21,151 nt of DNA from a virus, in the IMG/VR virus record IMGVR_UViG_3300032265_001813, positions 1 to 21,151 of that record. The stretch is one strand, 5' to 3'. This document shows positions 1 through 16,971 of this stretch, piece by piece. The position numbers were made by a program, and so were the translations under genes. The notes beneath the pieces were generated by a model. The model searched no databases and was not told the DNA's origin. It saw only the letters and a program-made list of their open reading frames with translations. How positions within the stretch are numbered: position 1 is the first letter of the stretch; the number at the start of each line of letters is the position of its first letter.

Positions 1-320
1 ACAACTATAGCGTACTCTTGACCAGTCTGTACTGCTACCGGATTCATGAACGAAAACTTAGTCATAATCGAAGCATCTACAGAAGAAACTATTTCTGAAA
101 ATTCTTTTCTGACTGAAGCATAGTCATCGAGCGTTTTATAGTTTGGTATACCACCCGCTGCAGTAGGAACTATATAAACCATTATACCCGGTTCTAGAAC
201 ACCAGATATGTTTCCAACCCCGTACGGTTTCTTTTTAAAGTATAGATCTATGCTACTGATGTTAATCTGAGAAGATCCAGCTACAGCGTTTAGATCGATA
301 GTAAAAGTTTGGGCTTCCAT
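1..320 (-). CDS. Partial AQTF-type tail appendage/fibre protein, N-terminal part
   Basis: The frame opens with ATG at 320-318 and is still open at the window edge, giving at least 106 residues. It begins MEAQTFTIDL, continues through SSIDLYFKKK and a VSSVDASIMTKFSF stretch, and reaches NPVAVQTGQEYAIV at the edge. From memory, this order (AQTF, then a S-I/V-D-hydrophobic-F-F/Y-x-x-K strand, then S-x-D-x-S...T-x-F-x-F, then PV-x-L/V-x-x-G-x-E-Y/F) is the C-terminal beta-rich domain of DUF4815-type appendage proteins of T4-like aquatic phages. There it directly follows a DPLAQTF motif inside a longer protein; here it starts its own gene. An AAGGA ribosome binding site overlaps the stop of the 138-residue gene, 7 nt before the ATG. 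The role is probably structural and peripheral on the baseplate or fibres, inferred from context. The remainder lies outside the window. Confidence 0.75.
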   Translation of the reverse strand, partial: MEAQTFTIDLNAVAGSSQINISSIDLYFKKKPYGVGNISGVLEPGIMVYIVPTAAGGIPNYKTLDDYASVRKEFSEIVSSVDASIMTKFSFMNPVAVQTGQEYAIV

Positions 321-327
321 CAAATTA

Positions 328-332
328 TCCTT
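328..332 (-). promoter_or_regulatory. Ribosome binding site for the partial appendage gene
   Basis: On the minus strand the sequence reads AAGGA, 7 nt before the ATG at 320-318. It overlaps the TAA stop (333-331) of the preceding gene. This supports the ATG as the true start of a separate cistron rather than an internal methionine, which matters because relatives carry this domain inside a longer protein. Confidence 0.7.
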
Positions 333-747
333 ACGTTGTCACGATGTTTGAAGCTTGAGTATATTTCGTGAACATAATATCCGGCGTATTATTGGTAAAA
401 AATATAGTCTTATTGATAAAACTTGTACCAGACTTATCAGTTATAGTCAAAAGCTTGTTACCCATTATATCTCTGAATATATTAGCGAACGTTTTGTTAC
501 CAAAGATTATAGCTTCGTTCTGTCTGTTCCAGTAAAAAGTGAAGTTTAACTTTCCGTATCCATCGGATATCAAAGTTTCTCCAAGTTGTTTTCCGTCTTG
601 AACACAAAATCCTGTAAAATCTAGCTTATCAAAAATCACAAAATAACGTGTGTACGGTCTTAAGCTAGCGCATTCTAGTCTAAAAGACTGATCTGGCACG
701 CTAAACTGAGAAGCGGATAGTTTCTTTTTTACTTGTGAGATATCCAA
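331..747 (-). CDS. Small structural protein with LRPxT...FD...D beta-sandwich motif
   Basis: The product is 138 residues and the start is TTG at 747-745. An in-frame TAA lies five codons upstream and the first internal Met is near residue 94, so no ATG start could include the conserved N-terminal half; a GGGAG site sits 6 nt before the TTG. The protein contains SLRPYTRYFVIFDKLDFTGF near residues 28-47, then ETLISDGYGKLNFTFYW, then GNKLLTITDKSG. From memory this matches the segment of DUF4815 appendage proteins that reads LxPxTRxYxFFDxxxVxxF, then LxTDxxGxxxxxFxIP, then a GxRxFxLT strand. In those proteins the segment lies between the DUF4815 body and the AQTF domain, the same order as the genes here. 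There is no signal peptide or membrane segment. It is probably a virion component next to the DUF4815 protein. No enzymatic residues were recognised. It could also be an independent adaptor that shares the fold. Confidence 0.75.
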   Translation of the reverse strand: MDISQVKKKLSASQFSVPDQSFRLECASLRPYTRYFVIFDKLDFTGFCVQDGKQLGETLISDGYGKLNFTFYWNRQNEAIIFGNKTFANIFRDIMGNKLLTITDKSGTSFINKTIFFTNNTPDIMFTKYTQASNIVTT

Positions 748-753
748 CTTATT

Positions 754-758
754 CTCCC
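754..758 (-). promoter_or_regulatory. Ribosome binding site deciding a TTG start
   Basis: The minus strand reads GGGAG here, 6 nt before TTG at 747-745. The 20-nt gap also holds a short inverted repeat (751-755 with 762-766, five A/T-rich pairs and a six-base loop) that would place part of the site in a weak hairpin. The hairpin is probably too weak to matter on its own. Confidence 0.6.
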
Positions 759-767
759 GTTAGAATA

Positions 768-3700
768 TTAATAACCATAGAGTGCTATGTGACCAGTAGA
801 AGTAAGGTTACCATCACCATCATAGTAACCTAGAGCTAACGCTTCATCAGATCCGGCTGGAGGAAAATTTGTTTCTCCATCTATCAACCAGTATTTAGAT
901 ACAAAAATAGTCTGAGTGGTTGCTGCAGTAGTAACACCTGTGCTTGTGTTGTTTGTAGAAACTGTAATACTTGTGTTGCTCGTAGAAACTGTAACAACCG
1001 GTGTAGTTATTACAGCTTGTCTAGCTCCGTACAACGTAGTATCAAACACTAGTGTAGTCACAGCTAAATCGGTAGTCTGTGATACTATCCCCTGTTCTCT
1101 CAGAGTCTGAAGACCAGTGTTGATGCTGTTTGGCTCCGGATTGTTAAACATTGCAGCTATAGTCTGATCTACTGTCCAACCATCGACGTAGTACTTCTTT
1201 AACCAGTATGTGAAACCACCTATATCCGGCGGTCTTCCTAAACCACCAGCAAGAGAAGAACCTCCTCTTATGGGTGTATTCCAGTATACATTATATATTC
1301 TTCTCAGAACCGATTCAGTATCAGAAGCCGGTATAGTTCTTCCTACTCTAGCACTCATACCCTTCAACAATACTTCAGTACGACACTGGAAAGTTTCAAA
1401 GAATCTAGTCTTTATGTTCAGAGAAGTATCGTAGTAAGTCTGAGTCACGTAAGAAGTAGGAGTAGCGTATATGTCTGTTTCACCGGAATCGCTGATAGAT
1501 TCCAGATAGAAAGTCTGCTGATGAAGCATAGTAGATGGTCTTAAGAAAGCCCATCCATCCTGAGAGTAAGGAAATACCGGAGAAGATATAGTATAGTTAG
1601 AAATTACTACGTCTGTAGTGTTCCACTTGTATGCAAAAGTAGTTCCGTAACGTGTCTTATAGTTGTTAGAAATATTGATGAAATCGTTTCTAACATCGTT
1701 GATCGATCTTCCGCGAAGAATGATATCTGTTATCCAATAAAGAACACCGTTAAGTTCAGGAATACGCTGCATGTAAGTCGTGTAGAACCCATGAATAAGA
1801 TCTACTAACTGTTCACCGGTGTATCTATAAACTATCTGGAAATCTATGTAGCTAACTTTCCATAAAGCTAAACGTATAGCAGCAGCTACTGTGCTTGAAG
1901 GAATATAGATCGACTTAAACTTACCGCCGGCATCTTCACTGTAGCTTATCTGGTTGAACGTATAAGGCGCATGCGCTGCTATCGCGCTCCAGTCAGTAAT
2001 ATTGATGTTATACTGATCGAAGCCAGTACCCGGAGTACCCAACAGATCGTAACCGTACGGATTCATATCGAGAGCATCTGAGTCGTTACCAGATGACTGC
2101 ATATTCTTTGTCATGATATACAGGTATGTCGATGCGTACGTAGTAGAAGTAGGTGTTGGGGTTGGCGTAGGTGTTGGCGTCGGAGTGGGTGTAGGTGTTG
2201 GCGTCGGGGTAGGAGTCGGAGTAGGAGTGGGTGTTGATGTGATGATAGGTTGTGTTGGGCTAACATCATACACACAATCGATATAGTCTGCAGAGTCGAC
2301 TGGATACTGCAACATCCAACGCCACTTCTTACTGTTAGTTCCTTTAGTAGTCTGTATAGTATAGACTCTACCAGCTGAAGCTGTATGAGCAAAAGGTATC
2401 TTTCCGATTCCAGTTACATAACCACCATTTATGACAGGAGTATCAGTACTCAGAATTATTTCGCTGTTGTTGAAGAATGAGAGCTTTTTCAACATAGTTA
2501 TATCGTCTGCAGTAAGAGCCACTGCGTCAGAACTAGTTTTTAGAATAATACCACTCTGTATTATCTCAAAAGAAACTGGAGAGTTATACGTATAGAAATA
2601 CAAAGTACCAGAGGCATTGAACTGCGTAAACTTTGGAGTAGTATAAACGCTTACTGCTTGATCGGCAACATACGGATTAGCCTGTTGATCTGTTACTTCT
2701 GTTATAGCAAACGGCGAATTTCCATCAAGAACACACGGTGACGGAAGTGTTTCGTATGAAGCTGAGCTTTGAACTACTACAGGTTTTTCTGAAACTACGT
2801 TTAAACTATAGTTTAGATAATTACCATGAGGTAGATTGATATTATCTGAAGCTGGTAACAGGCTGTTAAACTTTCTTGTAGCAGAATACTGTGGATTATT
2901 TAAGTCAGAATAGCTGGATGTGCTGAAATCATCGACGAAGAAGCCGTACTTGAAACGATCTATATTCGGAGTCAAAGAGCTCGGAATGATCTGACTTGTT
3001 ACAGAATTTTCTAGCTGAGAAAGACCAACATAGTATTCTAGATCTTGTATTCTTCTTTCAAGATTACCGATCTCAGCCATAGTATAACCTTTTGGCTGAA
3101 GCTCATTCTTTATCTTCTTTGTAGAAGCGAGATTAAGAGCTATATGATTCTTTACTCTGGCTACAGTATGCTTTTCGCTTACTATTCTTGTGTTCAAAAT
3201 CTCGAGAGTTCTTACATCAGGATTTTTTGGAACAGTAGGATAATCAGGAATAAGAATGTTATCTATAAGAATACTGTCTGTTGGTGTATTCAGAGGAACT
3301 GGTTTTATATCAGAAGAACCCTTCAATACATCTACAGTTCCTTTTTTAGTAACGACTACGCTGTCTATTCTTGGAAGATAATAGCTGATGTCCGTAGTCA
3401 TAACTGAGTCAGGAAGTGGGAACCTAAGATCTGTAGAGATACTATTTGCAAACACACGTGTGTTTACTGGATCTTGGTTTGTTATTTTAACAGTAGTATT
3501 TGAAGCAGTAATAAACTCTCCAAGCTCAAAATTATAGTTGATAGTAGTTATGTTGTATAGAGAAGAACCAGTAGCGTAAACGTTGATAGTAGGAAGAGCA
3601 GACGGTCTAAAGTCGACAACATTAAGAAGATTATAGTAATCGTTTCTATCAGAATAAAGTTCCGGAACTTCGTTCGTGTTGATTATTCCGTTTTGAGTGG

Positions 3701-6700
3701 TTAGATCTCTTAAGTTTAGACTGTCGTTGATATACTGTTGAGCAGAATTTGAACCGACATACGACTGTGTTACAAAACAACCCACGGTGTTGGCCACAAA
3801 AGCATCGAAAATTACAGAAAGAGTATCGCTGCTCGTAAGCTGAAGAGAAGAATTGGGATCGAGATACAGATAGCCAAGATCCAAGTAGTCTGTATTCTGA
3901 TTGTGATCGATATAAAACGAAGAAGTTTTATCTATGGTATCATTTATTACTACACTCTTCAAACGAAAAATATCTGGACAGCCAAGACACCAAGGGCCAG
4001 TTACACCCGCTGGATTATTAAGAGCAGTAATTTTAACGTTGATATCTCTGACTGCTTGTTTAGTTCCAGCACTAACGTTGTATCTCTTAACGTTATAAGA
4101 AGCTGCAGCTGTAGCAGAAGATCTAATTCTGTATCCCACGTTTGCAGTCATAACTTTAGAATCACTGCTAACGCTCATGGTCATACCGTTTCTAGAACCA
4201 AACGGCATAGAAACATTTTGTGGGAACACTCTTGTTATAGATGCATTAGAAGAGTTGAAAGTAACATTAGAGTTAAGCTGCATGCTTGTGTTGTTAGATA
4301 TCAACACAACTTTCTTGATATCACTGTGCGCATTAGTTGTAGAGAATGAATGACCGGTTTCACTTATACCAGCGGTAAGATCGATAGCTACTGTATTACC
4401 CGCGCTGCTAGTTAACTGGAAAGTAGTATTGTTTGAATTCAAAACATAGTAGTAAGCGTTGTTGCTTAGACCACCGATGTTTGAGTTTCCTGTAGCAACA
4501 AGATAATGAACGTAGTCACCGTTAGAGAACGGGTTCGGTGTTACCAAAATAGTATTGGAACCTGTACTCACGTTTGTTGAAGCGTTGATGTTTACTGAAG
4601 TTGTGTTTGATTCTATATAAACATAATCACCGACACTTAGATCGCTCAGAAAGCTTGTACCCGTTGTTGTTATAGTATTTGTTTGAGAGACTGTTAAACC
4701 AGAAGAACCGCCGGTAATAGCAGAAGAAAACACTAAGTTTGAAGTCGGAACGATGATGATATCGTTCATCTGTGCCGAAGTCAATGAACCGGTATAGTCA
4801 AACTTATCAGTAGAACTACCAGTATAAGAGATAGAAAGAGAACCAGAATTGGCAAAAGTTAAGTTGCTATTAGAAGTTCTATATGTATAAGTTATGTTAT
4901 TTGCATTCTGCAGAGTAGTTACTGTACCAGATTTAAACAGAAGCTGACTGTTGTTAGCTCCGTTTATAAAAGCTATGTTAGCTCCAGTAACAGGATCAGG
5001 AGTCAATACTATATCAGCTATACCGATAGTAGTAGACGGCAAAGTATTCGATGAACCGTAATAGATACTTCTAGCATCTTTAAGATTATAACCTGTAGCT
5101 ATAGCTGTATCGAACAAATAAGCTCTATATATAGCCGTGTTTGTTCCCGGTGTACCGTCTTCAAGAACCAAAGAACGAACACGTGCTTTACCTATCTGAT
5201 TACCAGTAAAAGAAGGAAGAGTAGTCAGATTGTTTGTGATAAACGCTGCAGGAGAATCAGAGAATACTACTTGATCTCCATGATTGAAGTTTATATAGCC
5301 GCCCATTTCAGAGACACGAACATAGTTGTTGTAGCTCAAGCTTACAACAGCACCGTTTGTATACCCGATACCGATACCAGCATCTATCTCTGAATAGTGA
5401 TTCTCTGAAGTCTCTACTCTATAACCGCTGATATAAGCTTTTCCTGGATCTACTATAACTGCTACTTTAGCTGCGTTACTGCTTCCGTTAACTGCTAGAG
5501 TAGACTTAGTAGTAGAAATAAACTCATCTATCACATAGTTTCCAGCTTCATCGCTTGTTCTACGTGCGAGTTCGTTGTTAATCTCATTGTATGCAGTGTA
5601 ACGATTCTGCTTAAACGGTTTACCGTCACTAAAATCTACTAGACTAAAATATAAATCTGAAGCGTTAGCTTCGTCTGTAGATACAACTGTAAGTGTCGGA
5701 ACAAGTTTCATTCTATCGGCGCCGGGCGCATTAGAGTTAGTTGTTGCTGTAACGTTATCTAACAAAGAATCATCTTGATTGCTTGTGATGATACTTTCGT
5801 TTGTCTGAAACACTACCGATATATTATTAGCCGAGCTTACTTCGTTGTATTTGTTAACTATCACGCTTTGTGGGTTTACTTTTACAAAGAATCCCTTCTG
5901 ATAGATATAACCCTCAGTTACAGACATCGAGTAACCGGTGCCAGATCCTACTACACCAGATGGCACTTTAACTTTGGCTGCATAGTTTATACCTATAGCA
6001 GAAAACGTGCCTATGGTGGCTGTACTTTTTGTTGGCTTTATAACTATGTTTGGAAGAATCGTATAACCGTAACCGATATTCAAAACAGGAATGCCAAGAA
6101 CGTATCCGGTAGAATCTGTTATAACTTGTGCAGAAGCATTTTTACCTATAGAAGAAACAACTGTGCCAGAAACACCGTTAGAATTGCTGAGAGTTATTTT
6201 AGCCGTTTCTGTATTACTTGCAGAAGTGAATACCCAAGGAGTCGTAGTTAGATTTGTATTCAATAGATCTATAGTACGAGGCTTTATACGAAGAATAATA
6301 TCGTTGTTAGCTGAACCAAACTGTCCGGTAAGAACTTCTGTAACGACAGCAGTAGCACCAGTATTTCCTTGTAAGATCTCATCGTTAACATTAAAAGATG
6401 CATTAGCCATAGTAACTCTAAGAGAAGAGCAGATGATAGCTGTGTCGTTGTTAGAAAATCCGCTACCGCCGTTTACACTATTTATAGCGAAAAAAGAATT
6501 GTTGGCGTTAGATATAGTTAAGATATCATTTGGATTATAGTTAGTAGTTACACCATCAAATCCACTCTTGGTGTATTCTAGATAAAGAGTTTTTGTATTC
6601 GGAGCAGTAGTTTCGAAACCATCTACAGACTCAAGAATTCTTGCTTGAACTCCAGTAGACTGGTTATAAACGAACATGCCAACATAAGCTGACGGAACCG

Positions 6701-6965
6701 TTGGAACACCGTTGATATCAAGATCTGATATTCTTACGTAAGGATAAGCATCGTTGAAGCTAAAGTTTACGCCTGAAACTATTGCACCAGATTTAAAAAT
6801 ATTATCGCCAAACTTTTCGATCTGGTTCTGAAAAATAGACTGTACTTGATTCAGCTCTCGCGTTTGTACCGAGACACCCGGTTTGAATAAGATCTTATAG
6901 AAATCTTTTTTCTCATTGTAATCATCAAAGTAGGGAGAAACACTAAGATTTGTCGTTAAAGCCAT
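768..6965 (-). CDS. Giant DUF4815 tail appendage protein with Thr-Pro linker and DUF4214-like segments
   Basis: The product is 2065 residues, starting with ATG at 6965, which has AAGG 11 nt upstream. The N-terminus (residues 8-70) holds PYFDDYNE, FYKILFKPGVSVQTRELNQ and QIEKFGDNIFKSG, diagnostic of the DUF4815 family of large T4-like virion proteins. Later family landmarks follow: YYNLLNVVDFRPS near residue 1107, YYLPRIDSVVV, and a predicted short coiled coil YTMAEIGNLERRIQDLEYY near 1294-1312. Residues 97-135 and 188-228 look like small beta-modules also seen in gp7 and gp8. A run of 14 Thr-Pro dipeptides at 1578-1605 separates this body from a 460-residue tail. The tail carries two DUF4214-like segments (about 1718-1769 and 1883-1942, each with a G-x-x-Y-W core) and a Thr/Ser/Val-rich stretch. 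It is probably a peripheral baseplate or fibre component contacting the host. The DUF4815 call is firm, the exact virion position is not. Confidence 0.88.
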   Translation of the reverse strand: MALTTNLSVSPYFDDYNEKKDFYKILFKPGVSVQTRELNQVQSIFQNQIEKFGDNIFKSGAIVSGVNFSFNDAYPYVRISDLDINGVPTVPSAYVGMFVYNQSTGVQARILESVDGFETTAPNTKTLYLEYTKSGFDGVTTNYNPNDILTISNANNSFFAINSVNGGSGFSNNDTAIICSSLRVTMANASFNVNDEILQGNTGATAVVTEVLTGQFGSANNDIILRIKPRTIDLLNTNLTTTPWVFTSASNTETAKITLSNSNGVSGTVVSSIGKNASAQVITDSTGYVLGIPVLNIGYGYTILPNIVIKPTKSTATIGTFSAIGINYAAKVKVPSGVVGSGTGYSMSVTEGYIYQKGFFVKVNPQSVIVNKYNEVSSANNISVVFQTNESIITSNQDDSLLDNVTATTNSNAPGADRMKLVPTLTVVSTDEANASDLYFSLVDFSDGKPFKQNRYTAYNEINNELARRTSDEAGNYVIDEFISTTKSTLAVNGSSNAAKVAVIVDPGKAYISGYRVETSENHYSEIDAGIGIGYTNGAVVSLSYNNYVRVSEMGGYINFNHGDQVVFSDSPAAFITNNLTTLPSFTGNQIGKARVRSLVLEDGTPGTNTAIYRAYLFDTAIATGYNLKDARSIYYGSSNTLPSTTIGIADIVLTPDPVTGANIAFINGANNSQLLFKSGTVTTLQNANNITYTYRTSNSNLTFANSGSLSISYTGSSTDKFDYTGSLTSAQMNDIIIVPTSNLVFSSAITGGSSGLTVSQTNTITTTGTSFLSDLSVGDYVYIESNTTSVNINASTNVSTGSNTILVTPNPFSNGDYVHYLVATGNSNIGGLSNNAYYYVLNSNNTTFQLTSSAGNTVAIDLTAGISETGHSFSTTNAHSDIKKVVLISNNTSMQLNSNVTFNSSNASITRVFPQNVSMPFGSRNGMTMSVSSDSKVMTANVGYRIRSSATAAASYNVKRYNVSAGTKQAVRDINVKITALNNPAGVTGPWCLGCPDIFRLKSVVINDTIDKTSSFYIDHNQNTDYLDLGYLYLDPNSSLQLTSSDTLSVIFDAFVANTVGCFVTQSYVGSNSAQQYINDSLNLRDLTTQNGIINTNEVPELYSDRNDYYNLLNVVDFRPSALPTINVYATGSSLYNITTINYNFELGEFITASNTTVKITNQDPVNTRVFANSISTDLRFPLPDSVMTTDISYYLPRIDSVVVTKKGTVDVLKGSSDIKPVPLNTPTDSILIDNILIPDYPTVPKNPDVRTLEILNTRIVSEKHTVARVKNHIALNLASTKKIKNELQPKGYTMAEIGNLERRIQDLEYYVGLSQLENSVTSQIIPSSLTPNIDRFKYGFFVDDFSTSSYSDLNNPQYSATRKFNSLLPASDNINLPHGNYLNYSLNVVSEKPVVVQSSASYETLPSPCVLDGNSPFAITEVTDQQANPYVADQAVSVYTTPKFTQFNASGTLYFYTYNSPVSFEIIQSGIILKTSSDAVALTADDITMLKKLSFFNNSEIILSTDTPVINGGYVTGIGKIPFAHTASAGRVYTIQTTKGTNSKKWRWMLQYPVDSADYIDCVYDVSPTQPIITSTPTPTPTPTPTPTPTPTPTPTPTPTPTPTSTTYASTYLYIMTKNMQSSGNDSDALDMNPYGYDLLGTPGTGFDQYNINITDWSAIAAHAPYTFNQISYSEDAGGKFKSIYIPSSTVAAAIRLALWKVSYIDFQIVYRYTGEQLVDLIHGFYTTYMQRIPELNGVLYWITDIILRGRSINDVRNDFINISNNYKTRYGTTFAYKWNTTDVVISNYTISSPVFPYSQDGWAFLRPSTMLHQQTFYLESISDSGETDIYATPTSYVTQTYYDTSLNIKTRFFETFQCRTEVLLKGMSARVGRTIPASDTESVLRRIYNVYWNTPIRGGSSLAGGLGRPPDIGGFTYWLKKYYVDGWTVDQTIAAMFNNPEPNSINTGLQTLREQGIVSQTTDLAVTTLVFDTTLYGARQAVITTPVVTVSTSNTSITVSTNNTSTGVTTAATTQTIFVSKYWLIDGETNFPPAGSDEALALGYYDGDGNLTSTGHIALYGY
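2151..2234 (-). repeat. Coding repeat: 14 consecutive Thr-Pro dipeptides
   Basis: On the minus strand 84 nt encode (Thr-Pro)x14, residues 1578-1605 of the DUF4815 protein. Both amino acids use mixed codons (ACA, ACT, ACC and ACG; CCC, CCT, CCG and CCA), which suggests selection on the protein rather than pure recent slippage. Within it a 17-nt word occurs twice 24 nt apart, so some unit duplication has happened. Such runs usually make extended, stiff, protease-resistant linkers. Confidence 0.95.
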
Positions 6966-6982: not shown

Positions 6983-9004
6983 TTAAAATTCAAAGATTAA
7001 CTGATACTGTTCTGACTGATTGTTGGCTCTAGTAATCTGAGCAAGATTTTCTAAGTACAAGATCTTACCGCTACCAAAAACAACCTCTGGTAAGTATTTA
7101 TTCGTCAGTGTGGCGACGGCTCCAGAATTTAAACCAACTATCGTGTTAGAAGTATTAAATATACCGTTTTGATTTGTAACAAAATAATTAGTTACGCCGT
7201 TTATATTCTGAACAGAATGAAGAATAGCGCTGGATACTATATTGGAAATTTGTGTTACTGTCTCATTTATTTGAAAAGTTCCGGTTGTAGTAGTCCCTGT
7301 ATATCTATAAGCTTCTACGAAAGTATCAAACTGCTTAGATACACCGTTTATAACTATATCGCTGATAACATTAGCGACAGCTCCGGAAGAACTACCAACC
7401 AATAACGTATCAGTTTTTATGTGACCAATGAGATTTTTTATCTCTATCTGACCAGTAGTCACACTATCTATGGTTCCGTAAGCTTGAGTGTCAAGAGTAT
7501 AGACAGTAGCGTTAGCAAAAGTATATGGACTCTGCAAGTTGAGTGTAGCATATGTGCTGTTAGTAACACCACCAACCACAAAAAGCTGATCTACAGTTCC
7601 AGTAGAAACATAGATTAAAGTATTAGCTGTAAGAAGAGTGTCAAAAGATCCGTTGTTTGCGGCTACCATAACATTATTACCGCTAGAAATATTTACGTTC
7701 TGTTGAATTCTTTTAGGATAGAAACTATATACGGTTTCGTTTCCAATAAAAGTACCTCTAGAAGAAGAGTATTTTACTACAACGCTAGAATACTGAGGAT
7801 TCAAAAGTACACCGATCTGTCTATAGTAGCTAGAAGATGGGATAGTATTACTTTCTGAGTTTCTAAATTTAACGCTGATCTCTGCTGCAGAACAATACAA
7901 CTCGTTGGCTGGATTGGAACCATGACCTCCAGGAGGAGATAAGATTGGTCTAACTGTGGCTATACTAGTAGGGTTAACATACTGAGAAGCATACACTTCA
8001 GCGTTTGCTATCTTATAGTCTTGACCCTTACTTAACATCTCTATACGAGATATAGTGTTTCCGTTTGGATTAACATAAGCCCATGCTGTAGCATTAACAG
8101 ATTGAGTTTGATCGCCCGTTATATAGACGCCCGGATATATCGAATACGTCGAAGTATTATCCGGATTAGGATTGAACGGAGCGTTCAAAGTCATAAATTT
8201 AGTTGCAGTAGAACCGTTATAGATGTTTATATTTCTATATTGTCCTCTTCCTGTACCAGAAGTGATAGCTAACACGCATCCCTTATAGTAGTCATCTACT
8301 TGAGAAGCTCCACCTACACTGATAGCGTAGTTATAAGCGTTTTGATACACGCCGATATCACTCGTACTGAAGTAGCCGTTAACAATATAGTTGTTGTAAC
8401 CTGAACCGGTAGAAATGATCTTCACTGCTTCTATAGAACCAGATACTGCCGAATTGATTACTTCTACGTTAGCGGTGTAGGGAATATATGTATCAGTAGC
8501 AAACTGATCGTATGAAGAGCTATCAAAACTATACATGTATTTCCAAGTATAGCCGTCAGTTGGGCTAGTATAGACTCCGTCGCTACCTATAGCCAAGAAA
8601 TCTGGTTGTACAGTAGATACGGCGCCGCTATTGTTGTCTAAGCACTTGAATACATGATAGTAGCTTCCACCGAATACATAAACATAGAATATTTCAGAAG
8701 ATAAGTTTATATCTTGATCATCGTACATGCTATATACAGAACCAGATATCCACTGATATTTTTTTATAACCAAAGAAACATCAGTAGTCTTAGCTAACTT
8801 TCCAAATATCATATTACGATAAACATCGATGTATGTTTGATTAACGTTGTCGTATATTGTAGGAATAACGCTGTTATTATACGGTTGATGATTACCGGCA
8901 AACACATAGTAGTAGTTACCGTTAGCACCAGTCTTATTGAAAGAATCTACAAAGTTCTGAGCGGAGTTGTATCTATATGTGTTTGGTATAAGTTGTTGCG
9001 CCAT
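6983..9004 (-). CDS. 8: Baseplate wedge protein gp8-like, enlarged
   Basis: The product is 673 residues, against about 334 in T4 gp8. T4-like landmarks are present in order: YYHVFKCLDNNSGA near 115-128 (T4 has VYRCLD), then the DGYTWKYMYSF strand near 150-160 and TYIPY near 172-176, and at the C-terminus KILYLENLAQITR...EQYQLIFEF (T4: MIYMENRPPI...EINILFTF). Residues 355-400 hold SPPGGHGSNPANEL and a VKFRNSESNTI strand, typical as far as I recall of gp8 from aquatic T4-like phages. The extra length lies mainly between residues 190 and 635 and includes beta-modules near 500-552 and 568-632. gp8 dimerises in T4 and bridges gp6/gp7 and gp10 in each wedge. The ATG abuts the TAA of the fibre gene with no gap, and GGAG lies 5 nt upstream inside that gene. 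Confidence 0.87.
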   Translation of the reverse strand: MAQQLIPNTYRYNSAQNFVDSFNKTGANGNYYYVFAGNHQPYNNSVIPTIYDNVNQTYIDVYRNMIFGKLAKTTDVSLVIKKYQWISGSVYSMYDDQDINLSSEIFYVYVFGGSYYHVFKCLDNNSGAVSTVQPDFLAIGSDGVYTSPTDGYTWKYMYSFDSSSYDQFATDTYIPYTANVEVINSAVSGSIEAVKIISTGSGYNNYIVNGYFSTSDIGVYQNAYNYAISVGGASQVDDYYKGCVLAITSGTGRGQYRNINIYNGSTATKFMTLNAPFNPNPDNTSTYSIYPGVYITGDQTQSVNATAWAYVNPNGNTISRIEMLSKGQDYKIANAEVYASQYVNPTSIATVRPILSPPGGHGSNPANELYCSAAEISVKFRNSESNTIPSSSYYRQIGVLLNPQYSSVVVKYSSSRGTFIGNETVYSFYPKRIQQNVNISSGNNVMVAANNGSFDTLLTANTLIYVSTGTVDQLFVVGGVTNSTYATLNLQSPYTFANATVYTLDTQAYGTIDSVTTGQIEIKNLIGHIKTDTLLVGSSSGAVANVISDIVINGVSKQFDTFVEAYRYTGTTTTGTFQINETVTQISNIVSSAILHSVQNINGVTNYFVTNQNGIFNTSNTIVGLNSGAVATLTNKYLPEVVFGSGKILYLENLAQITRANNQSEQYQLIFEF

Positions 9005-11059
9005 TTAGACTCCGATCGCCATATAATATACTAAAACTTGTGCACCCGTAATCGGTACTCTGATGCTAGCTACAGTAGTGTTTGCAGCTATTACAGAAGC
9101 AAATCCACCGGTAGATCCCGTTACAGAAACGTTGTTACTTGTAGCTTGAACGTTATAAAGAGTAGTGAAAGCTGAAGTGAAAGTAGCATCGCCAGTAGAA
9201 GAATTAGCAAGCACTGTACCCCAGTTCATCTTTATACCGTTCGGTAACCAGACGTATCCGTTTGCAGCCTTAGATGATGTTCCGATATTCAGAGTATTAC
9301 TGTTGATAGTACCGGTATTTATAGTGAAAGAAGTAGAGTTTACAGTAGTATTGATGGTGTTGTTACCAAGTAGAAGAGTACCATTGTTTAGATAAGAACC
9401 GCCGGTACCAGTTGTAGTATTTCCTGCAGCAAAAGCTGCAGCGTTAACTAGATTAGTATGATATGTACCAGTAGTGTTAGCTATGAACGATGTACCGACT
9501 GTAAACGATGCAGCGTTAACTAGATTAGTATGATATGTACCAGTAGTGTTAGCTATGAATGATGTACCGACTGTAAACGATGCAGCATTGACGATACTAG
9601 TATAGACACCAGCAGTATTAGCTATAGTTATAGCATTTATATTTAGACCAACTGTAGTTAAGAAAGCATTTGTAGAATTATTACCGATAAAAATGATAGT
9701 ATCGTTTGCTACAGTTGCTCCGGTACCAGTAGTCAAATCTGTAGAAGAACCGGTATAGATACCAGAAGTATTAGCAGTAAATCCGGTCCCAACTGTAAAA
9801 GATGAAGCGTTTACAGTATTAGTATAGACACCTGTTGAATTAGCAACAGTCGCTGTACCGTTTATAAACAAACCTGCAGTAGTTATAGCAGTGTTGATAG
9901 TAGTATTACCGGTATAGAATCCAGTAGAGTTAGAGTAAGTCGACCAAGCAGAAGAATTGATGTATCCTGTATAAACACCGGTGCTGTTAGCGATGGTGCT
10001 TTGACCTACGCTGAAGTATAAAGCGTTAGCGTATCCATTAACGTGTAGTCCGATAGCATTAGCCATAAACATCGTTTGATAGCCAACGTTTCCAGTATAC
10101 ACAATGAAATCATCGTTTGTACCAACGCTTATTCTTCCATGACCAGAAACATAATCTACAACTATACCGTCAGTATAAACTAAAGTATTAGTAGTAAACT
10201 GACCATTAGAATAGAAACCGTTTCCTGAATTAATAGTATTGGCAATATACATATTTCCGCCAATATTAATGTTACCAGAAATATTAGCACTATATGCTGT
10301 TACAACGTTTGAGTAAAGATTCCAAAGATTAGACGTATTACCAAGATTTAAATTGTTAGATGACGGTGTAAAATTTACGTTAGATTGCCAAGCTGTACCA
10401 GTAGACTGGTAAACTAAGTTAGCATAGCTTCCTACTATTATACCAGAACCAATAGCAGCTGCTGCAGTAGCAGCATTATTAGAGACCACAATATACTTAT
10501 CGTTTGTAGTTATAACTGTAGCATTAACAAAAGTTGTGTTACCTGAAACAAAAAGAGTACCTGTAATAGAAAGATTTCCACCGACAGAAACATTATTGGT
10601 AACGTTTAAAATACCAACGTTAGCTGTATTTGATACAGTTATAGAGCTTACTGATAAACCAGTATTAACAGAAATACCAGAAGCGTTAGCTATAAAACTG
10701 CCATTACTTACATTTATACCGTTGCTGAAGAATACGTTCGCTCCGGTGAAATTAAGATTACCAGTTAAAGTTCTACTGTCTGTAGATAAAACATAGTTGT
10801 TTCCAAGATATCCAGCAAGATAAACGGAGTTGTTTGATGTACCGGTATACGATGTAGAGTTTATAGTAGATGTGCTTGTACCGTTAGCACCGGTTATGGT
10901 TATCGTGTTAGAAAAAGCTACAGTTTTAGTGGTTGCATTGATAACTACCGTAGTATAGTAATCAGAAAAGTTTGAGTTGATCTTTCCCATAGCAGTACGA
11001 AGCGGATCACCGGTACCATCGTTGGCTGTATTACCAATATTAATAACTTGTTGTGCCAT
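9005..11059 (-). CDS. Tail fibre protein with gp9/gp10-type N-terminus and gp53-like tip domain
   Basis: The product is 684 residues. The first 34 hold INIGNTANDGTGDPLR followed by KINSNFSDYY, the same module that opens T4 gp10 (INIGNVVDDGTGDYLR...KINENFDELY) and is related to the start of gp9; it is probably the baseplate-docking part. Residues 35-350 are Thr/Ser/Asn/Gly-rich beta structure typical of trimeric fibre shafts. Residues 355-545 contain loose repeats of about 24 residues with a TGVYT-type core. Residues 598-684 (WLPNGIKMNWGTV ... YYMAIGV) resemble the gp53-like tail-fibre C-terminal domain that commonly forms a receptor-binding tip. An enzymatic function is not suggested. TAGGA overlaps the upstream TAG stop, 7 nt before ATG. 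It lies between genes 7 and 8, which are adjacent in T4. Likely role: short or side fibre that contacts the host, inferred from the architecture. Confidence 0.8.
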   Translation of the reverse strand: MAQQVINIGNTANDGTGDPLRTAMGKINSNFSDYYTTVVINATTKTVAFSNTITITGANGTSTSTINSTSYTGTSNNSVYLAGYLGNNYVLSTDSRTLTGNLNFTGANVFFSNGINVSNGSFIANASGISVNTGLSVSSITVSNTANVGILNVTNNVSVGGNLSITGTLFVSGNTTFVNATVITTNDKYIVVSNNAATAAAAIGSGIIVGSYANLVYQSTGTAWQSNVNFTPSSNNLNLGNTSNLWNLYSNVVTAYSANISGNINIGGNMYIANTINSGNGFYSNGQFTTNTLVYTDGIVVDYVSGHGRISVGTNDDFIVYTGNVGYQTMFMANAIGLHVNGYANALYFSVGQSTIANSTGVYTGYINSSAWSTYSNSTGFYTGNTTINTAITTAGLFINGTATVANSTGVYTNTVNASSFTVGTGFTANTSGIYTGSSTDLTTGTGATVANDTIIFIGNNSTNAFLTTVGLNINAITIANTAGVYTSIVNAASFTVGTSFIANTTGTYHTNLVNAASFTVGTSFIANTTGTYHTNLVNAAAFAAGNTTTGTGGSYLNNGTLLLGNNTINTTVNSTSFTINTGTINSNTLNIGTSSKAANGYVWLPNGIKMNWGTVLANSSTGDATFTSAFTTLYNVQATSNNVSVTGSTGGFASVIAANTTVASIRVPITGAQVLVYYMAIGV
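9437..9580 (-). repeat. Tandem duplication, two 72-bp copies in the fibre gene
   Basis: Copies at 9437-9508 and 9509-9580 are identical except for one base (C at 9488, T at 9560). They encode two identical 24-residue blocks, residues 494-517 and 518-541, each beginning SFTVGTSFIANTTG. The one difference is silent (TCG or TCA, Ser). A diverged further copy flanks each side in the protein. Confidence 0.95.
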
Positions 11060-11068
11060 CTACAATTC

Positions 11069-13714
11069 CTACGGTTTATAAATCATGTCTGAAGTAAAAT
11101 AAGTACTGTCATCGGTTATGTCATATCTATCTACTGTCGTGTTAATAAGAGTCAAATATCTGTCTATTTTAGATTGAACTGGCAAAATAGAACTTATAAC
11201 ACTAGATGCAAAATATTTTGTGCCGGCGACATGAAGCAGTTGTTTTAGCATCGCTTCATATTTATCTAACGTCACAGCAGATCTTATTTCATAAGAGTAA
11301 TCTTGATAGTAGTAACCGTCATAAATTTTCTTAGTATCACTCAAGAACCCGTTACGATCTCTATAGAATCCTAGAGTCTTTCCTTGAGTTCCTTGAGAAT
11401 CTGTGTTTGAAGTTCTTGTTCCAAGAAGCATATGAGCTGTACCAGCTCTTGTCCCATCCAAAGAATAGAAATCTCCAAGCTCATCGTGTTGATAACCTAA
11501 ACCAGAATCTATAACATCTATGTTTGTTACTGAACCTACTTCAGTAACAACGTTAGCTGTAACTATAGAGTTTACACCCATAGATTTTGAATTGTTGTTT
11601 GCATAAACAAAATTAACATAAGCATTGGTTCCAGAACCAAGACCTGTTATATAAGTGTTTGTGACTGTATTAGAAAAAGAATTTTCAAAGTTTATAAGTC
11701 TTAGAGACAATGTATTAGAAGTACTAGTGTATCCTAACACTATACCGTTAGCACCAGTAGAAGTCTGGATTACGCTTTCTCCAGTTATAAAGTTAGCTGT
11801 AGCGTTAGAAATTTGAAGATCTACATCTTTTATTAAGTATTGTGATATAAGAGGACTATCTATCTTTACTACAGGAGGAACGTTATACTCTACACCGTTA
11901 TTGATACCGGTCAAGTTCAGTATGGTACCTATAGTCTTTTCGGCAAAGTTTAAACAGTTTGCGATCGGTGTAGTTGATGTAGCGTTAGCTATCACGGTTG
12001 GTTTAAAACCGTAGTCTGTAGCATTCAAACGAACCGTCAACTTATCACGAAGAAAATCTGTGTTGAGTTCTATCTGTTCCGGATTTCCTAAAGAGCTAGA
12101 GAAAACAAAACTGGCTAGCTCTCCCTTAGAGATAGTCAAAACCGTTCCGTTGCTATAAACGTTACCGTCATAAGCTTGAGTGTAAACATAATTACCAGTG
12201 TTGCTATAGAACTGGTTGCTGATATCGATGACGCCAACGTCTACTGATATATTATTAACGTTGGCTGATCTACCAGAAGAAGTGCTGTAGATATTGGCAC
12301 CGTAAACAAAAATTCCGTTAGTGTTCGCTACAGTAATAGTGCCACTAAAACTGCTGGAAGTTGAACCGATTATTTTTGCATAAGCACTGTACGTGCCGTT
12401 GTTAGCTAATTGATAAACATACTCGTTGTTGCTGAAGGGTAAAGAGTTAGCATAAGATATGACAACATTACCAGTAGTGCCAATAATATTTGCTGTAGCA
12501 GTTTGATCTACGATTCCACCAGAATCAATATTAGCAGTTATAGTGTTTCCAGTATTATAGTAACCGTTAACGGTTCCAGCTCCTCGACAATCAACGTTGC
12601 CGGAAATAACTGTAACATACATAAGACCAGCAGTATTAGAATTTTTTGTAAATCCTTGTACTGCAAAAGATCCTTTTATACTTCCGTTGCTGTAGTAGTT
12701 AAAATAAAAATCACCTGCGTTTATATCTGGAACAGTAGAATTCAAATTAGCATATTTAAAGTTATTAAAGTTGACAATAGCTTGTGGCGCTACGAGCTTA
12801 TCGTAGTCTCCAAAATAGTTATTGCTGAAAGCAGTATTCACTTGAACGTTTGATATTCTTATAACTTTTTCTGAGATATGAATATCAGAATCGCTCGTGA
12901 AACCAAAACCACCGTCTACTAGATTAAACTCAACTTTACCGGTAACATCAGCTACTCCAGATACTCTACCTTTAGCGCTAGAACCTTGCGGAGAATCTAT
13001 CGTTACTATATCACCGATACTGAATCCTTTACTTCCAGTCACGATTCTTACTTTTGTAAGAGATCCAATAATCTTCGGGTTGTTTACTACACTAACTTGC
13101 TTACTTGTTTTAACGATCTCACCGGTAATAAAATTACCACGAATAGCCGATATAACAAACACTTCTACATAAGTGCCCTTTATCTTCTTTCTTAGAAGCT
13201 TCTCTACAAAGGCTGTTGTACCAGTCTGTAATCCTATTATCTCTTTTCCAACAAAAACTATATTGTAAGGAGAAGGACTAATTTCTAGATAGTACTGTTC
13301 GTAGTAGTCACCGCTAGATAGTCTAAAAATATCTTCGCCAGGAAGATATATCGTAGCTGGAGTATCAAAAACTACTTTGAACAGTAAGTCTATAGCTCTG
13401 GGTGTACCCTTAGATCTATAAAGATCAAGGCTGTGCTTGACCATTCTTTTTAGAGACGCTGCTGTCTGGAATTGAATGTTCTTCAGATACTTTTCTTTGA
13501 AGTATACAAGAAAACTATCTACCGTACTATCGATATCTCTGTATTCTTGAAGACGACGTGAATGATAGATGGGGCCGCCGATATTATTTTGTTGAGATTC
13601 CATCCAAACATAATACTGTTTGACGAACTCAATAAACAGAGGACCTTCTTCTTGTAAGAAGAATGGAAACTGTGATTCAACTAGATTCGATACTGTTTTT
13701 TCGATATTGAGCAT
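11069..13714 (-). CDS. 7: Baseplate wedge protein gp7-like
   Basis: The product is 881 residues (T4 gp7 about 1032). The N-terminal 150 residues match the second half of T4 gp7: a helical region FIEFVKQYYVWMES, then LDLYRSKGTPRAIDLLFKVV (T4: YDFYSTKGIEASYKFLFKVL), then a GEDIFRLSSGDY strand. The C-terminal end (about 803-840) has YQDYSYEIRSAVTLDKYEAM followed by LLHVAGTKYF, matching T4 RSYYVMKIKSNLPSSRWKSD...FVHPVGFGF. The N-terminal half of T4 gp7 has no counterpart. In its place the middle (155-700) holds several beta-modules (about 155-205, 426-475, 641-685). gp7 initiates wedge assembly and spans the wedge in T4, binding gp10, gp8, gp6 and gp53. The start overlaps the gp6 stop by one base (TAATG), and the position after gene 6 agrees. 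Confidence 0.78.
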   Translation of the reverse strand: MLNIEKTVSNLVESQFPFFLQEEGPLFIEFVKQYYVWMESQQNNIGGPIYHSRRLQEYRDIDSTVDSFLVYFKEKYLKNIQFQTAASLKRMVKHSLDLYRSKGTPRAIDLLFKVVFDTPATIYLPGEDIFRLSSGDYYEQYYLEISPSPYNIVFVGKEIIGLQTGTTAFVEKLLRKKIKGTYVEVFVISAIRGNFITGEIVKTSKQVSVVNNPKIIGSLTKVRIVTGSKGFSIGDIVTIDSPQGSSAKGRVSGVADVTGKVEFNLVDGGFGFTSDSDIHISEKVIRISNVQVNTAFSNNYFGDYDKLVAPQAIVNFNNFKYANLNSTVPDINAGDFYFNYYSNGSIKGSFAVQGFTKNSNTAGLMYVTVISGNVDCRGAGTVNGYYNTGNTITANIDSGGIVDQTATANIIGTTGNVVISYANSLPFSNNEYVYQLANNGTYSAYAKIIGSTSSSFSGTITVANTNGIFVYGANIYSTSSGRSANVNNISVDVGVIDISNQFYSNTGNYVYTQAYDGNVYSNGTVLTISKGELASFVFSSSLGNPEQIELNTDFLRDKLTVRLNATDYGFKPTVIANATSTTPIANCLNFAEKTIGTILNLTGINNGVEYNVPPVVKIDSPLISQYLIKDVDLQISNATANFITGESVIQTSTGANGIVLGYTSTSNTLSLRLINFENSFSNTVTNTYITGLGSGTNAYVNFVYANNNSKSMGVNSIVTANVVTEVGSVTNIDVIDSGLGYQHDELGDFYSLDGTRAGTAHMLLGTRTSNTDSQGTQGKTLGFYRDRNGFLSDTKKIYDGYYYQDYSYEIRSAVTLDKYEAMLKQLLHVAGTKYFASSVISSILPVQSKIDRYLTLINTTVDRYDITDDSTYFTSDMIYKP

Positions 13715-15603
13715 TATTGTCTTACAGTGATGACGTTGATTTCAAGCTCATCTAAAGCTAACTCGAGTATATTGTTTCCGTTGGAAGTTATATCACCTTC
13801 TCGTGGAAGACCGTACAGTCTTATTTCGTTGCCTTCAAACTTATCAATATTAAAGTCATTTATATAAACTGCACCGGTATCATAGTTTACAGTACCAACA
13901 GTTTTTTGGAATTTATGATTGGTACCAACAAAAGAAACGATGTTTACTATACCAGCACCGTTATCTTCTAACACGCATGTTTCACCGTTGTATATAAACT
14001 TTGAAGATGATATCGCATGCAATCTATCTGCTGGATGAGTATTAGTCAAAGTAGGAATAGTAGATAACAAAGGAACACCGAGTCTGATAACCCAGTTCTG
14101 CGATACTCCTAAGAACGGTGTAAACTTCTTGAACACTGTTATATTAGTATCGTTACTGATGATACTTTGATCTGCATTATCGATAGAATTCAAAAGACGT
14201 GATTTTCTAAGAGTAACATTAAAGTTTTGTAGATAAGTAGTATCGAACTCTTGAATCACTGTAGATACTTGATTCTTGATCTGATCGGGTCTAGCAGAAG
14301 TAACGTTTATGTTGTAGTTAACTTTAGAAACTACTTTATAGTACAAGTTTTCTGGTGAGATGAATATAGCATCGATAGAAAGAGGAGAGCGAGGTTTTAT
14401 GAACTGTGCATACTCTATCTTTTTAGCATCTGGTAGGCCGTCTACATCTTTTAGTTTTACAGATACATAGACTTTACCAAAAAGCGGCGGATCAAATGTT
14501 TCTCCACCAAAAACAGCTATAGCACCTATTTCCGGAAACTGGTTTTGAAGAAGGATTTGATAGTCTCCTGGAGTTATAGCTCTCTCTTGAGTCTGAAAAT
14601 AGCGTGGAGCTTTGAATCTTATCTGAGCTATGCTTTCTGCTACAGCTCCACCATAAGACCCGCCCGAAATATCAGAAGATGCAACTATTTTTGGTATGCT
14701 TCCTCTGATCTCAGAATTACTAGTGCTACCAACATTAGTATCCAAAGAAAAGTTTAAAACACCGTTACCAAGATCACCCGCGCAAGTTCTGTACTGCACT
14801 GTGATAACTGCACCGTTTCTTGGTCTACGACCAATGATATCGTCACCGAATATAACTTCGTATTTTCCGTTTTCGGCTGCTTGCAAGAAAAATTTAAGAT
14901 CTGTACTGTTTATACCAAGAAGAGTTATAGAATAAGTGTAAGTATAAACGGTTGCTCCAGAGTTTTCAGATACCGTTACTGTAATACTATCTGTATCTAC
15001 AGTAGAATCTGATAAAACATATCTTTGATTTTCTAAAGAATAGTCAGATACAAAAGTGTCTGTTTGATAGTTTCCCTGATATATCACAAAAGGATTGACT
15101 ATATAACTGGTTCCAAGAGAATCATACTCTCTTGAAGACACATGAAAGTCAGAAGTATTAGCTGAAGTATTAGCGATAGGAGTATTGTTTATATACGTGC
15201 TGTCTGTAACGAAGTTATAAGATACACCCTTAGATATTCCACTGAATCTTGTGCCTTTTGGCATATAAAGAGTTTTTGCATCAGATTTTAGTTGTATGAC
15301 AAACGGTTCTAAAGTTATCTCTGCAGATTTATTAGATCTTGGAAGATAGTTAAGTTCTTTTGCATGAGAAACTATACTATCTTTTAACTGAGCAGAATCC
15401 AAGAAAGACTCGGAAGCTACCATATTAAGATAGAAGCCGTTCATGAAAGTGTTATAAGCTAACACATCCAAAAGAACGTTGATATTTGATCCTTCAAAAT
15501 CAAAGTCTTTGAAGATCGCTTGAGACTTCAAGTAATTTTTAAGATTTTGTTTGGTAGTATCAAAATCTAGTGATACAAGATCTAAAGAACTATTTGATGC
15601 CAT
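13714..15603 (-). CDS. 6: Baseplate wedge protein gp6 (baseplate J-like)
   Basis: The product is 629 residues, near T4 gp6 (660). The N-terminus has the DFDTTKQNLKNYLKSQ helix and FEGSNINVLLDVLAYNTFMN near 36-55, a signature of gp6 and related J-like wedge proteins. The central block near 314-375 has GGSYGGAVAESIAQIRFKAP, then QERAITPGDYQILL, then a VFGGETFDPPLFGKVYVSV strand, the conserved core of the family. gp6 dimers make the inner ring that holds the wedges round the hub and switch conformation when the sheath contracts. Its ATG overlaps the gp25 stop by one base and its own stop overlaps the gp7 start by one base. AAGAG lies about 8 nt upstream of the ATG. The assignment is secure. Confidence 0.93.
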   Translation of the reverse strand: MASNSSLDLVSLDFDTTKQNLKNYLKSQAIFKDFDFEGSNINVLLDVLAYNTFMNGFYLNMVASESFLDSAQLKDSIVSHAKELNYLPRSNKSAEITLEPFVIQLKSDAKTLYMPKGTRFSGISKGVSYNFVTDSTYINNTPIANTSANTSDFHVSSREYDSLGTSYIVNPFVIYQGNYQTDTFVSDYSLENQRYVLSDSTVDTDSITVTVSENSGATVYTYTYSITLLGINSTDLKFFLQAAENGKYEVIFGDDIIGRRPRNGAVITVQYRTCAGDLGNGVLNFSLDTNVGSTSNSEIRGSIPKIVASSDISGGSYGGAVAESIAQIRFKAPRYFQTQERAITPGDYQILLQNQFPEIGAIAVFGGETFDPPLFGKVYVSVKLKDVDGLPDAKKIEYAQFIKPRSPLSIDAIFISPENLYYKVVSKVNYNINVTSARPDQIKNQVSTVIQEFDTTYLQNFNVTLRKSRLLNSIDNADQSIISNDTNITVFKKFTPFLGVSQNWVIRLGVPLLSTIPTLTNTHPADRLHAISSSKFIYNGETCVLEDNGAGIVNIVSFVGTNHKFQKTVGTVNYDTGAVYINDFNIDKFEGNEIRLYGLPREGDITSNGNNILELALDELEINVITVRQ

Positions 15604-16016
15604 TAGCGAACTCTTTTAAGGATAAGATTTAAATTTTCTGTCTGTCCAGTATTTATTATAGAAAAAGCGATCGTTATCGTAACAGAATTTTCAGCTTCGT
15701 TACCGTATACGTTTACTCCCAAAAGTCTCGCTCTGGGTTCCTGATAAGTTACTGTATCTTCTACATACGTCTGTAAGTTCTGTAGAGTAAACGGATCTAA
15801 GTTTTCAAAAAGAGTTTTATAGACATTAGAACCTACAGTTGGAGAGAAAAGTCTTTCACCAAAATTAGTTAAGATAAGATTTCTGATAGACTGTTTGATA
15901 GACTCTCCGTTAGTAACTTTCGCTATATCGTTGGAAAGCGGGTGTAAGTCTAGATTAGACAGAAAGTCGCTGTATATTTCTGGTTGTTTTGGTGTAACTC
16001 TATCTGCTCTTGACAT
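15603..16016 (-). CDS. 25: Baseplate wedge protein gp25
   Basis: The product is 137 residues, close to T4 gp25 (132). It has the family landmarks: IKQSIRNLILTNFGERLFSP near 40-59, a LFENLDPFTLQNLQTYVEDT helix near 69-88, and the EPRARL motif near 93-98 that is conserved across gp25-like proteins of phages and type VI secretion (TssE). It also ends in the typical beta-hairpin (VTITIAFSIINTGQ). gp25 joins gp6 and gp53 at the inner baseplate and contacts the first sheath ring. The ATG is one base after the PAAR gene stop. No odd features were seen. Confidence 0.93.
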   Translation of the reverse strand: MSRADRVTPKQPEIYSDFLSNLDLHPLSNDIAKVTNGESIKQSIRNLILTNFGERLFSPTVGSNVYKTLFENLDPFTLQNLQTYVEDTVTYQEPRARLLGVNVYGNEAENSVTITIAFSIINTGQTENLNLILKRVR

Positions 16017-16017
16017 A

Positions 16018-16308
16018 CTAGACCGCCGTTACGTTAGCATCACCGCTAGATGCGCTTGGAGCACAATGAGCTCCGCCCAATGGAATACATAGAGCATCCG
16101 GAGCAGCTGCATCACCGACTCCGATCACTCTTTTACCATCGATGTAGATAGCTGCTATCTGACCGGGACTAAGATTTCCGCCTCCATGACTATCAGGATC
16201 ACCTTCTACAGACCATAGCTGACCATCAACAAAAACAAATCCTTGACCACTAACTATAGTAGAAGCACCACAGGCTCTTGAGTCGCCGTTTCTATGTACT
16301 TGTGTCAT
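16018..16308 (-). CDS. 5.4: PAAR-domain spike tip protein (gp5.4-like)
   Basis: The product is 96 residues, the size of T4 gp5.4 and other PAAR tip proteins. It starts with HRNGDSRACGAS (His5, Cys13), has a GFVFVDGQLWSVEGDPDSHG segment (His41), and ends with a CIPLGGAHC block (Cys74, His81, Cys82). In the PAAR family, His and Cys residues bind one metal ion at the tip of a conical beta-cap on the spike; the His5, His41, Cys74 and His81 pattern fits, but which residues bind is inferred. The YIDGKRVIGVGDAA segment near 55-68 is typical of the repeat. It directly follows the spike gene with two bases between and AGGA 6 nt before the ATG, so spike and tip are produced side by side. Confidence 0.92.
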   Translation of the reverse strand: MTQVHRNGDSRACGASTIVSGQGFVFVDGQLWSVEGDPDSHGGGNLSPGQIAAIYIDGKRVIGVGDAAAPDALCIPLGGAHCAPSASSGDANVTAV

Positions 16309-16310
16309 GA

Positions 16311-16970
16311 TTATCCTGACTTGAAATCTATCTTTGGAGCTTTAACGGTAGTAGTTCCACCAGACTTAGTATCAAGAGTACTACCAACATCGATTATGGT
16401 TTTAGCGGAAGATTTAGTCTGAAAATCACCGCCGTCTGCTCTAGCTGATATTCCTTTTCCAGCTATAACATTAAAGTTACCGGCTGCATTAACAGCAAAG
16501 TCGCCGCCGACATCAAAGTTCACGTTATCACTAGTCTGAACAGTCAAGTTCTTACATACTATATAAAGATCATCCATAACAACTATCGCGGCACCTTTAC
16601 CAATTGCTATCGATAAATTTTTTGCGATCGCTTGAGTATAGTCACCGTTGATTTCATTATGAGAGTCTTGACCTATAGAAGTTCGAACGTTACCATTGAA
16701 TTTTAGATCACTATTGTTCTCGACAGTTTGAGTTAAACCACCCTGCACATATTTATGTTCATGATTTTTGATACTCTCTACTTTTCTACCGTCTGCAGAC
16801 CATTCAATATAAGATCCGGTCTTATGAGCGATTCTTACGCGTTCATGACCGGGAGTATCATCCCACTCCATCTCGTGACCAGATTCTGTAGTAGTTTTCT
16901 TGTTGAAATAATAGTCACTCTTGTAAGTAGATTTAGGGTGTCTTTGCGAGGGATCTGGATCATCTGCCAT
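16311..16970 (-). CDS. Beta-helix spike protein (separate gp5C/VgrG C-terminus-like)
   Basis: The product is 219 residues from ATG at 16970, one base after the stop of the OB-fold gene, with AAGAGA upstream. A GTG at 16997 would add nine residues but lies inside the upstream gene and has no better site. Residues 22-60 hold ESGHEMEWDDTPGHERVRI and AHKTGSYIEWSADG, the GH...DDTPG...ERI/V motif common to gp5 C-terminal and VgrG beta-helices. The rest (about 90-219) consists of short strands with alternating hydrophobic residues and ends TTTVKAPKIDFKSG, fitting a trimeric triple-stranded beta-helix needle. In T4 this domain is the C-terminal part of gp5 and is released by proteolysis; here it is its own gene. 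The PAAR gene follows at once, so this product probably carries the tip. Confidence 0.88.
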   Translation of the reverse strand: MADDPDPSQRHPKSTYKSDYYFNKKTTTESGHEMEWDDTPGHERVRIAHKTGSYIEWSADGRKVESIKNHEHKYVQGGLTQTVENNSDLKFNGNVRTSIGQDSHNEINGDYTQAIAKNLSIAIGKGAAIVVMDDLYIVCKNLTVQTSDNVNFDVGGDFAVNAAGNFNVIAGKGISARADGGDFQTKSSAKTIIDVGSTLDTKSGGTTTVKAPKIDFKSG

Positions 16971-16971
16971 A

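Follow-up and report, generated by a model that had tools for sequence, protein, structure and literature searches.

We propose, with a probability of about 0.74, that the virus analysed here makes a divided VrlC baseplate protein, the chains of which would assemble as one appendage while the freed C-terminus of its body would mount a stalk and a tail. Few baseplate proteins of large tailed phages are as widespread as VrlC/VriC, whose working parts are poorly understood. In the window (the whole stretch of DNA analysed, that is, the entire 21,151-bp viral record), sequence comparisons confirmed three consecutive genes, called B, S and D here, as the body, the sandwich and the DPLAQTF domain of one protein of the VrlC/VriC (DUF4815) family, which also goes by the name of "adsorption-associated tail protein" (Table 1). 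The window protein is a divided variant of this family and not a standard member, because its domains sit in three separately started open reading frames (ORFs) instead of one polypeptide. A first-pass annotation of the DNA had already described one DUF4815 protein laid out in order over three cistrons, each with a ribosome site of its own; all of these ORFs are where it had placed them, the sites of the two small genes are GGGAG and AAGGA, and profile, structure-database, synteny and phylogenetic evidence now support its core reading.

Table 1. Features of the divided VrlC locus in the window
Feature	Positions	Strand	Remarks
B gene, 2065 aa, ATG start	768-6965	minus	contains the DUF4815/VrlC body, an extra segment, a Pro-Thr linker and a tail specific to the clade
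DUF4815 body of B, residues 1-1348	2922-6965	minus	matched by body profiles; shares 53-57% identity with members of the clade
Extra segment of B, ~220 aa, residues 1349-1572	2250-2921	minus	between body and linker
(PT)n low-complexity linker of B, residues 1573-1610	2136-2249	minus	read from the sequence; poly-T or S/T in relatives
C-terminal tail of B, ~450 aa, residues 1611-2065	771-2135	minus	fast-diverging; two DUF4214-like motifs by eye
S ribosome-binding site, GGGAG	754-758	minus	immediately precedes the TTG; L003, L005 and L098 have comparable sites
S gene, 138 aa, TTG start	331-747	minus	VrlC sandwich domain, putatively Ig-like, encoded on its own
D ribosome-binding site, AAGGA	328-332	minus	just upstream of the ATG; overlaps the S stop codon
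D gene (DPLAQTF domain)	3-320	minus	ATG at 320, alternative TTG at 323; runs off the contig edge
gp8-like baseplate wedge gene	6983-9004	minus	adjoins B upstream; phrog_438, 1.4e-66; usual VrlC neighbour

Profile searches place the three products on one model. B matched PF16075 in a Pfam scan (E = 7.5e-51, 173.5 bits against a cutoff of 30) and model positions 173-958 of phrog_358 (6.8e-153), and the edge protein D fell further along phrog_358, at positions 1425-1512 (3.2e-8), as well as on positions 785-869 of phrog_877. By itself, the S protein gave nothing meaningful against Pfam, PHROGs or NCBIfam; its match is to VriC proteins of Ackermannviridae phages, including those of Serratia (E = 5e-5). 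To avoid circularity, the S and D profiles used on the window were built from undivided proteins only. Each of them picked out a single one of the 47 window ORFs, the S profile the 138-residue gene (6.5e-8) and the D profile the edge gene (3.7e-16), and among 11,199 shuffled ORFs neither matched any. The two small genes thus belong to the same family and not to unrelated ones, and undivided relatives carry both of their domains. The motifs that had been quoted for these genes are present too, as SLRPYTRYFVIFD, SSIDLYFKKK and PVAVQTGQEY.

The profiles also recognised the three parts in an experimental structure. When the Protein Data Bank was searched, a single chain (chain 0) of entry 9EUF, which we take to be the double-layered baseplate of Staphylococcus phage 812, showed the body at residues 75-256 and, side by side, S at 680-787 (2.1e-13) and D at 792-947 (2.7e-19). 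The S alignment that found this entry had 54 rows from divided and undivided proteins; a five-row S alignment missed it. A predicted model of S (pLDDT 77.8, with a core above 90) resembled generic Ig-like and related sandwiches (best Z 6.2), and Foldseek with this model returned weak, generic Ig-like matches (best E 0.024); 9EUF was not among the matches listed, which proves nothing. As for D, the window holds a part of it cut by the contig edge, 71% identical to the D of the related phage L003, and its full length is judged from relatives alone, in which the protein has 711-727 residues (L003, L005 and L098).

The genomic context is that of a baseplate. The minus strand of the window encodes a T4-like module, with a gp5-like hub (Gp5_OB) and a PAAR-like protein first, then genes at the positions of gp25, gp6 and gp7, a 684-residue protein, the gp8-like wedge and the DUF4815 gene. 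The succession of gp8 and VrlC is the same in phages Cr30, Ochrobactrum OC, phiM12 and S-RIM4, and the window follows the order gp25, gp6, gp7, gp8, VrlC as far as VrlC, ending before the small gene that comes next. This small gene (motif KD..T.AVIN.D plus a coiled coil) follows the undivided VrlC of Ochrobactrum OC, phiM12, S-RIM4, Mosig and pf16, and a similar one follows D in Cr30, DLP6 and seven loci of our survey (L003, L005, L098, L017, L113, L018 and L029), with a weak match in Serratia 3M and EF24C. Therefore, D ends where VrlC ends. Two further observations concern the surroundings. The 684-residue protein, encoded at 9005-11059 (minus strand) between the gp7-like and gp8-like genes, has no PHROG and no meaningful Pfam match, and its start (MAQQVINIGNTANDGTGDPLRTAMGKINSNF) resembles a repeat-rich fibre or whisker protein. 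Downstream of D in L003 there are long, repeat-rich, tail-fibre-like proteins (12760-14262, 14855-17272 and 17542-20358), the last of which ends in an intramolecular-chaperone-like stretch (DAKVKKDI...VRYNWIDNGKPSIGVIAQEIEK).

What sets the clade of the window apart lies mostly on the B gene, which aligns over its whole length with those of L003, L005 and L098. The linker and tail that the first-pass annotation had attributed to this gene are indeed there. It was also right that body, sandwich and D keep the family's order; body and sandwich are not directly adjacent, since a segment of about 220 residues comes before the linker. A similar stretch occurs in a split clade of 39 rows in our tree, where the spacing from body to sandwich is longer than in undivided relatives. 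Among the four members of the window's clade, identity is 53-67% in the body, 52-61% in the extra segment and 55-75% in S, and falls to 27-39% in the tail, and it is this tail that looks, from its sequence, like the newly specialised part. DUF4214 (PF13946, cutoff 23.2 bits) scored above the cutoff in L003 (25.1) and L098 (28.6) and below it in the window (12.6), so the tail of the window's B is, by this profile, DUF4214-like only. An AlphaFold model of the tail from four sequences (pLDDT 42.7) was too poor for a structure search. Other split phages carry other material at the opened joint, namely Hint domains (L019 and L035), acidic or Gly-rich stretches or a weak PA14-like match, and in certain split B genes, Cr30's for example, the tail is short.

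The division is not peculiar to the window. We surveyed 115 distinct loci having both body and D; 69 of them are undivided and 46 are divided at the B/S joint, the S/D joint or both, proportions that do not give frequencies in natural populations, since relatives of the window were the seeds of the survey. Of the divided loci, 14 spread B, S and D over three genes, 12 keep B apart from S-D and 10 keep B-S apart from D; in the remaining 10, S was unseen at first, and a broader S profile later placed it in eight. Some loci show further variation at the joints. L168, L170 and L171 have an additional break inside the C-terminal domain of the body (B1, B2-S, D), which makes a third joint, and S is followed by a Hint domain in L171 and by a poly-Gly stretch at the corresponding place in L168. 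Undivided proteins of L110-L112, L117, L121 and L163 carry Pro-rich, low-complexity insertions of about 80-200 residues at the S/D joint. In L020 (11222-11960), the B-S and D genes are separated by small extra genes, one of which (183 residues) has a start that by eye resembles that of a GIY-YIG homing endonuclease; the joint may be an insertion site for homing elements.

Both the recurrence of the split, with Cr30 and DLP6 as cultured examples, and the Hint (intein-like) domains found at the same joints go beyond the first-pass annotation. Hint domains of families PF05203, PF01079 and PF14623 sit at the S/D joint of undivided VrlC proteins in L109 (residues 1425-1572), L173 (1371-1515) and L157 (two tandem copies, 1374-1668), all three confirmed above cutoff by Pfam, and also in L178, L179, L183, L184 and L187; at the B/S joint, a Hint terminates the B genes of L019 and L035; L177 and L195 carry several in tandem. 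The S/D-joint Hints have a Cys at their start and His-Asn at their end, followed by Lys or Arg at position +1, as in L109, where HTYVADGLVVHN is directly followed by KDPLAQTF. Given that the +1 residue is not the Cys, Ser or Thr of intein chemistry, splicing is unlikely for these domains, and self-cleavage is possible. L055, a relative of L109, is without the module, and its gain or loss is therefore recent. A tblastn query found no Hint at the S/D joint in cultured phages, and neither a Pfam scan nor phmmer against the window ORFs found one in the window proteins. A candidate split intein at 4700-4900 of L180 was rejected: a short tandem duplication interrupts the VrlC frame inside the Hint there, which is probably an artefact of frameshifting. 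If the Hints cut, phages would open the same joints in two ways, by gene fission and post-translationally. It is conceivable, and we offer it as a rather doubtful extension of our reading, that breakage of the chain at the B/S and S/D joints is itself selected and is reached by two unrelated routes, separate genes (as in the window) or self-cleaving Hints, the appendage being multi-chain in both cases and the joint a dock for exchangeable adhesion modules.

How could such a divided protein work? Joined by non-covalent contacts, the B, S and D chains would build the prong or wedge appendage that a single chain forms in other phages, and each would sit where its counterpart does there. The joints would be exposed linkers at which a break is tolerated, and the break would leave a free C-terminus on the body, on which the clade of the window could mount a Thr/Pro stalk and a rapidly diverging, DUF4214-like tail. 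Stalk and tail would face outward and contact the host, while S and D would retain a structural role. Judging from its divergence, its composition and a DUF4214 match that is below cutoff in the window, the tail is probably an adhesion module. VrlC has been described as an integral part of double-layered baseplates (PMC7029224), and VriC has been proposed as a prong facing the cell (PMC11721090); both fit an outward-facing part in contact with the host, and they do not prove it.

The main rival is that the operon underwent neutral fission, tolerated at flexible linkers without advantage or function, and that the tail of B evolved independently. We consider this quite possible without favouring it. 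The breaks do lie at linkers, layouts interchange inside one clade as a tolerated and reversible change would, and a few split B genes, like that of Cr30, end in nothing but a short tail. However, tails that are long or unusual are found again and again at the opened joint, and Hints occupy the same joints, which suggests that separation has sometimes been selected.

Alternatively, S or D, once freed, could now serve some new function away from the appendage, in line with the earlier suggestion of a tip released for another function. As proteins of their own, S and D might in principle bind at other sites, and the S of the window's clade has strongly diverged from undivided S (12-22% identity). 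Yet S and D remain adjacent, in order and in single copy; in each of the 12 records counted, nine of which are 129-202 kb long, there is a single DUF4815 gene and a single gene of the D family. Between L005 and L098, dN/dS is about 0.17 for S, about 0.23 for D, 0.23 for the body and about 0.59 for the tail of B, values to be read with caution as dS is near saturation (1.1-1.8); by these ratios, S and D are under purifying selection at about the rate of the body, and S stays well conserved within the clade (55-75%, as above). It is because of this purifying selection that we prefer an appendage of three chains to a freed tip, and we hold a new role to be improbable.

The phylogeny speaks to the direction of the change. 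On a tree from 406 columns, which does not root itself and in which EF24C is a long branch, the window groups with L002/L003, L004/L005 and L098 (support 100), inside the 39-row clade (100), where B and D are always separate genes and S stands alone, on B or on D. Divisions also appear elsewhere, in Cr30 with L133, in DLP6, in L072/L073, in L168 and in L108, so that at least seven changes are needed at B/S, six at S/D and five between B and D, and the AU test rejects a tree on which all divided loci group together (p-AU 1.0e-4). The outer rows (Enterococcus EF24C, Serratia 3M, cyanophages and a Pelagibacter phage) are undivided. Repeated fission is favoured by this sequence-based tree, because undivided forms fill the outer lineages and split forms are nested and polyphyletic among them, and of the two origins that the first-pass annotation had left side by side, fission or an ancestral unfused state, the former is the one favoured. 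Three genes that came first and were fused in other lineages would agree with a tree that does not infer its own root and with change counts that are blind to gain versus loss. But Herelleviridae, Ackermannviridae, cyanophages and most marine lineages are undivided, as is 9EUF; the nesting of the split forms has starred support, and they do not make up one clade. We regard this history as very improbable.

The split itself is real beyond reasonable doubt in our view. The same three-gene layout is found in three further IMG/VR phages, L003, L005 (with its near-copy L004) and L098, and across the window and these three, the frame offset from B to S is 2, 0, 2 and 1, with spacers of 20, 12, 26 and 25 bases; the division is therefore not accounted for by a slip in sequencing or by a recoding signal conserved among these phages. 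An error in sequencing or in assembly, or a single protein made through frameshifting or stop read-through, can hardly be the explanation: such artefacts do occur among the relatives, probably in L180 (a short duplication leading to a frameshift) and perhaps at the suspicious overlap of L068, but the window's layout is repeated in three independent contigs with differing offsets and spacers and a ribosome site for each gene, and split D genes start within 4-15 residues of the D domain. Recoding or read-through as the source of the three ORFs was rejected on the frame offsets. The start codons are themselves a shared trait, with TTG for S in all four members of the clade (window, L003, L005 and L098) and a TTG-ATG start for D in three of the four, and these conserved weak starts may tune expression.

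Natural breaks of this kind mark the domain joints of VrlC and show where to cut the protein for expression; they also point to the sites where host-contact modules are mounted. If Hints cleave at the same joints, separation of the chain would be a functional step in the making of the appendage. For annotators, the short "hypothetical" genes that follow a DUF4815 gene are to be seen as parts of the same machine. Our literature searches on split VrlC, on gene fission in baseplates and on DUF4214 in phages found nothing on point.

Compared with the VrlC/VriC proteins of T4-like cyanophages, pelagiphages, rhizobial phages and Ackermannviridae (phrog_358, phrog_877, PF16075), the window has the same domains in the same order, the same place after gp8 and, in its relatives, a similar small gene. 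What is one chain there is three here, and B adds the extra segment, the (PT)n linker and the DUF4214-like tail. Chain 0 of 9EUF, in which the profiles of this family recognise body, S and D, differs likewise in being undivided, with 1152 residues and without a tail module between body and S. Hint domains, which relatives carry exactly at the B/S or S/D joint, are absent from the window. The closest parallels among cultured phages are partial divisions. In Caulobacter phage Cr30 (AGS81093/AGS81092), B is apart from S-D and bears a tail of its own, as in the window, but there are two genes only, annotated as hypothetical, and we found no description of them as a split VrlC in the literature. 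In Stenotrophomonas phage DLP6 (AAY80_267/268), both genes are annotated as VlrC and D is separate as in the window, whereas S remains on B, and the phage is distant from the window's clade on the tree.
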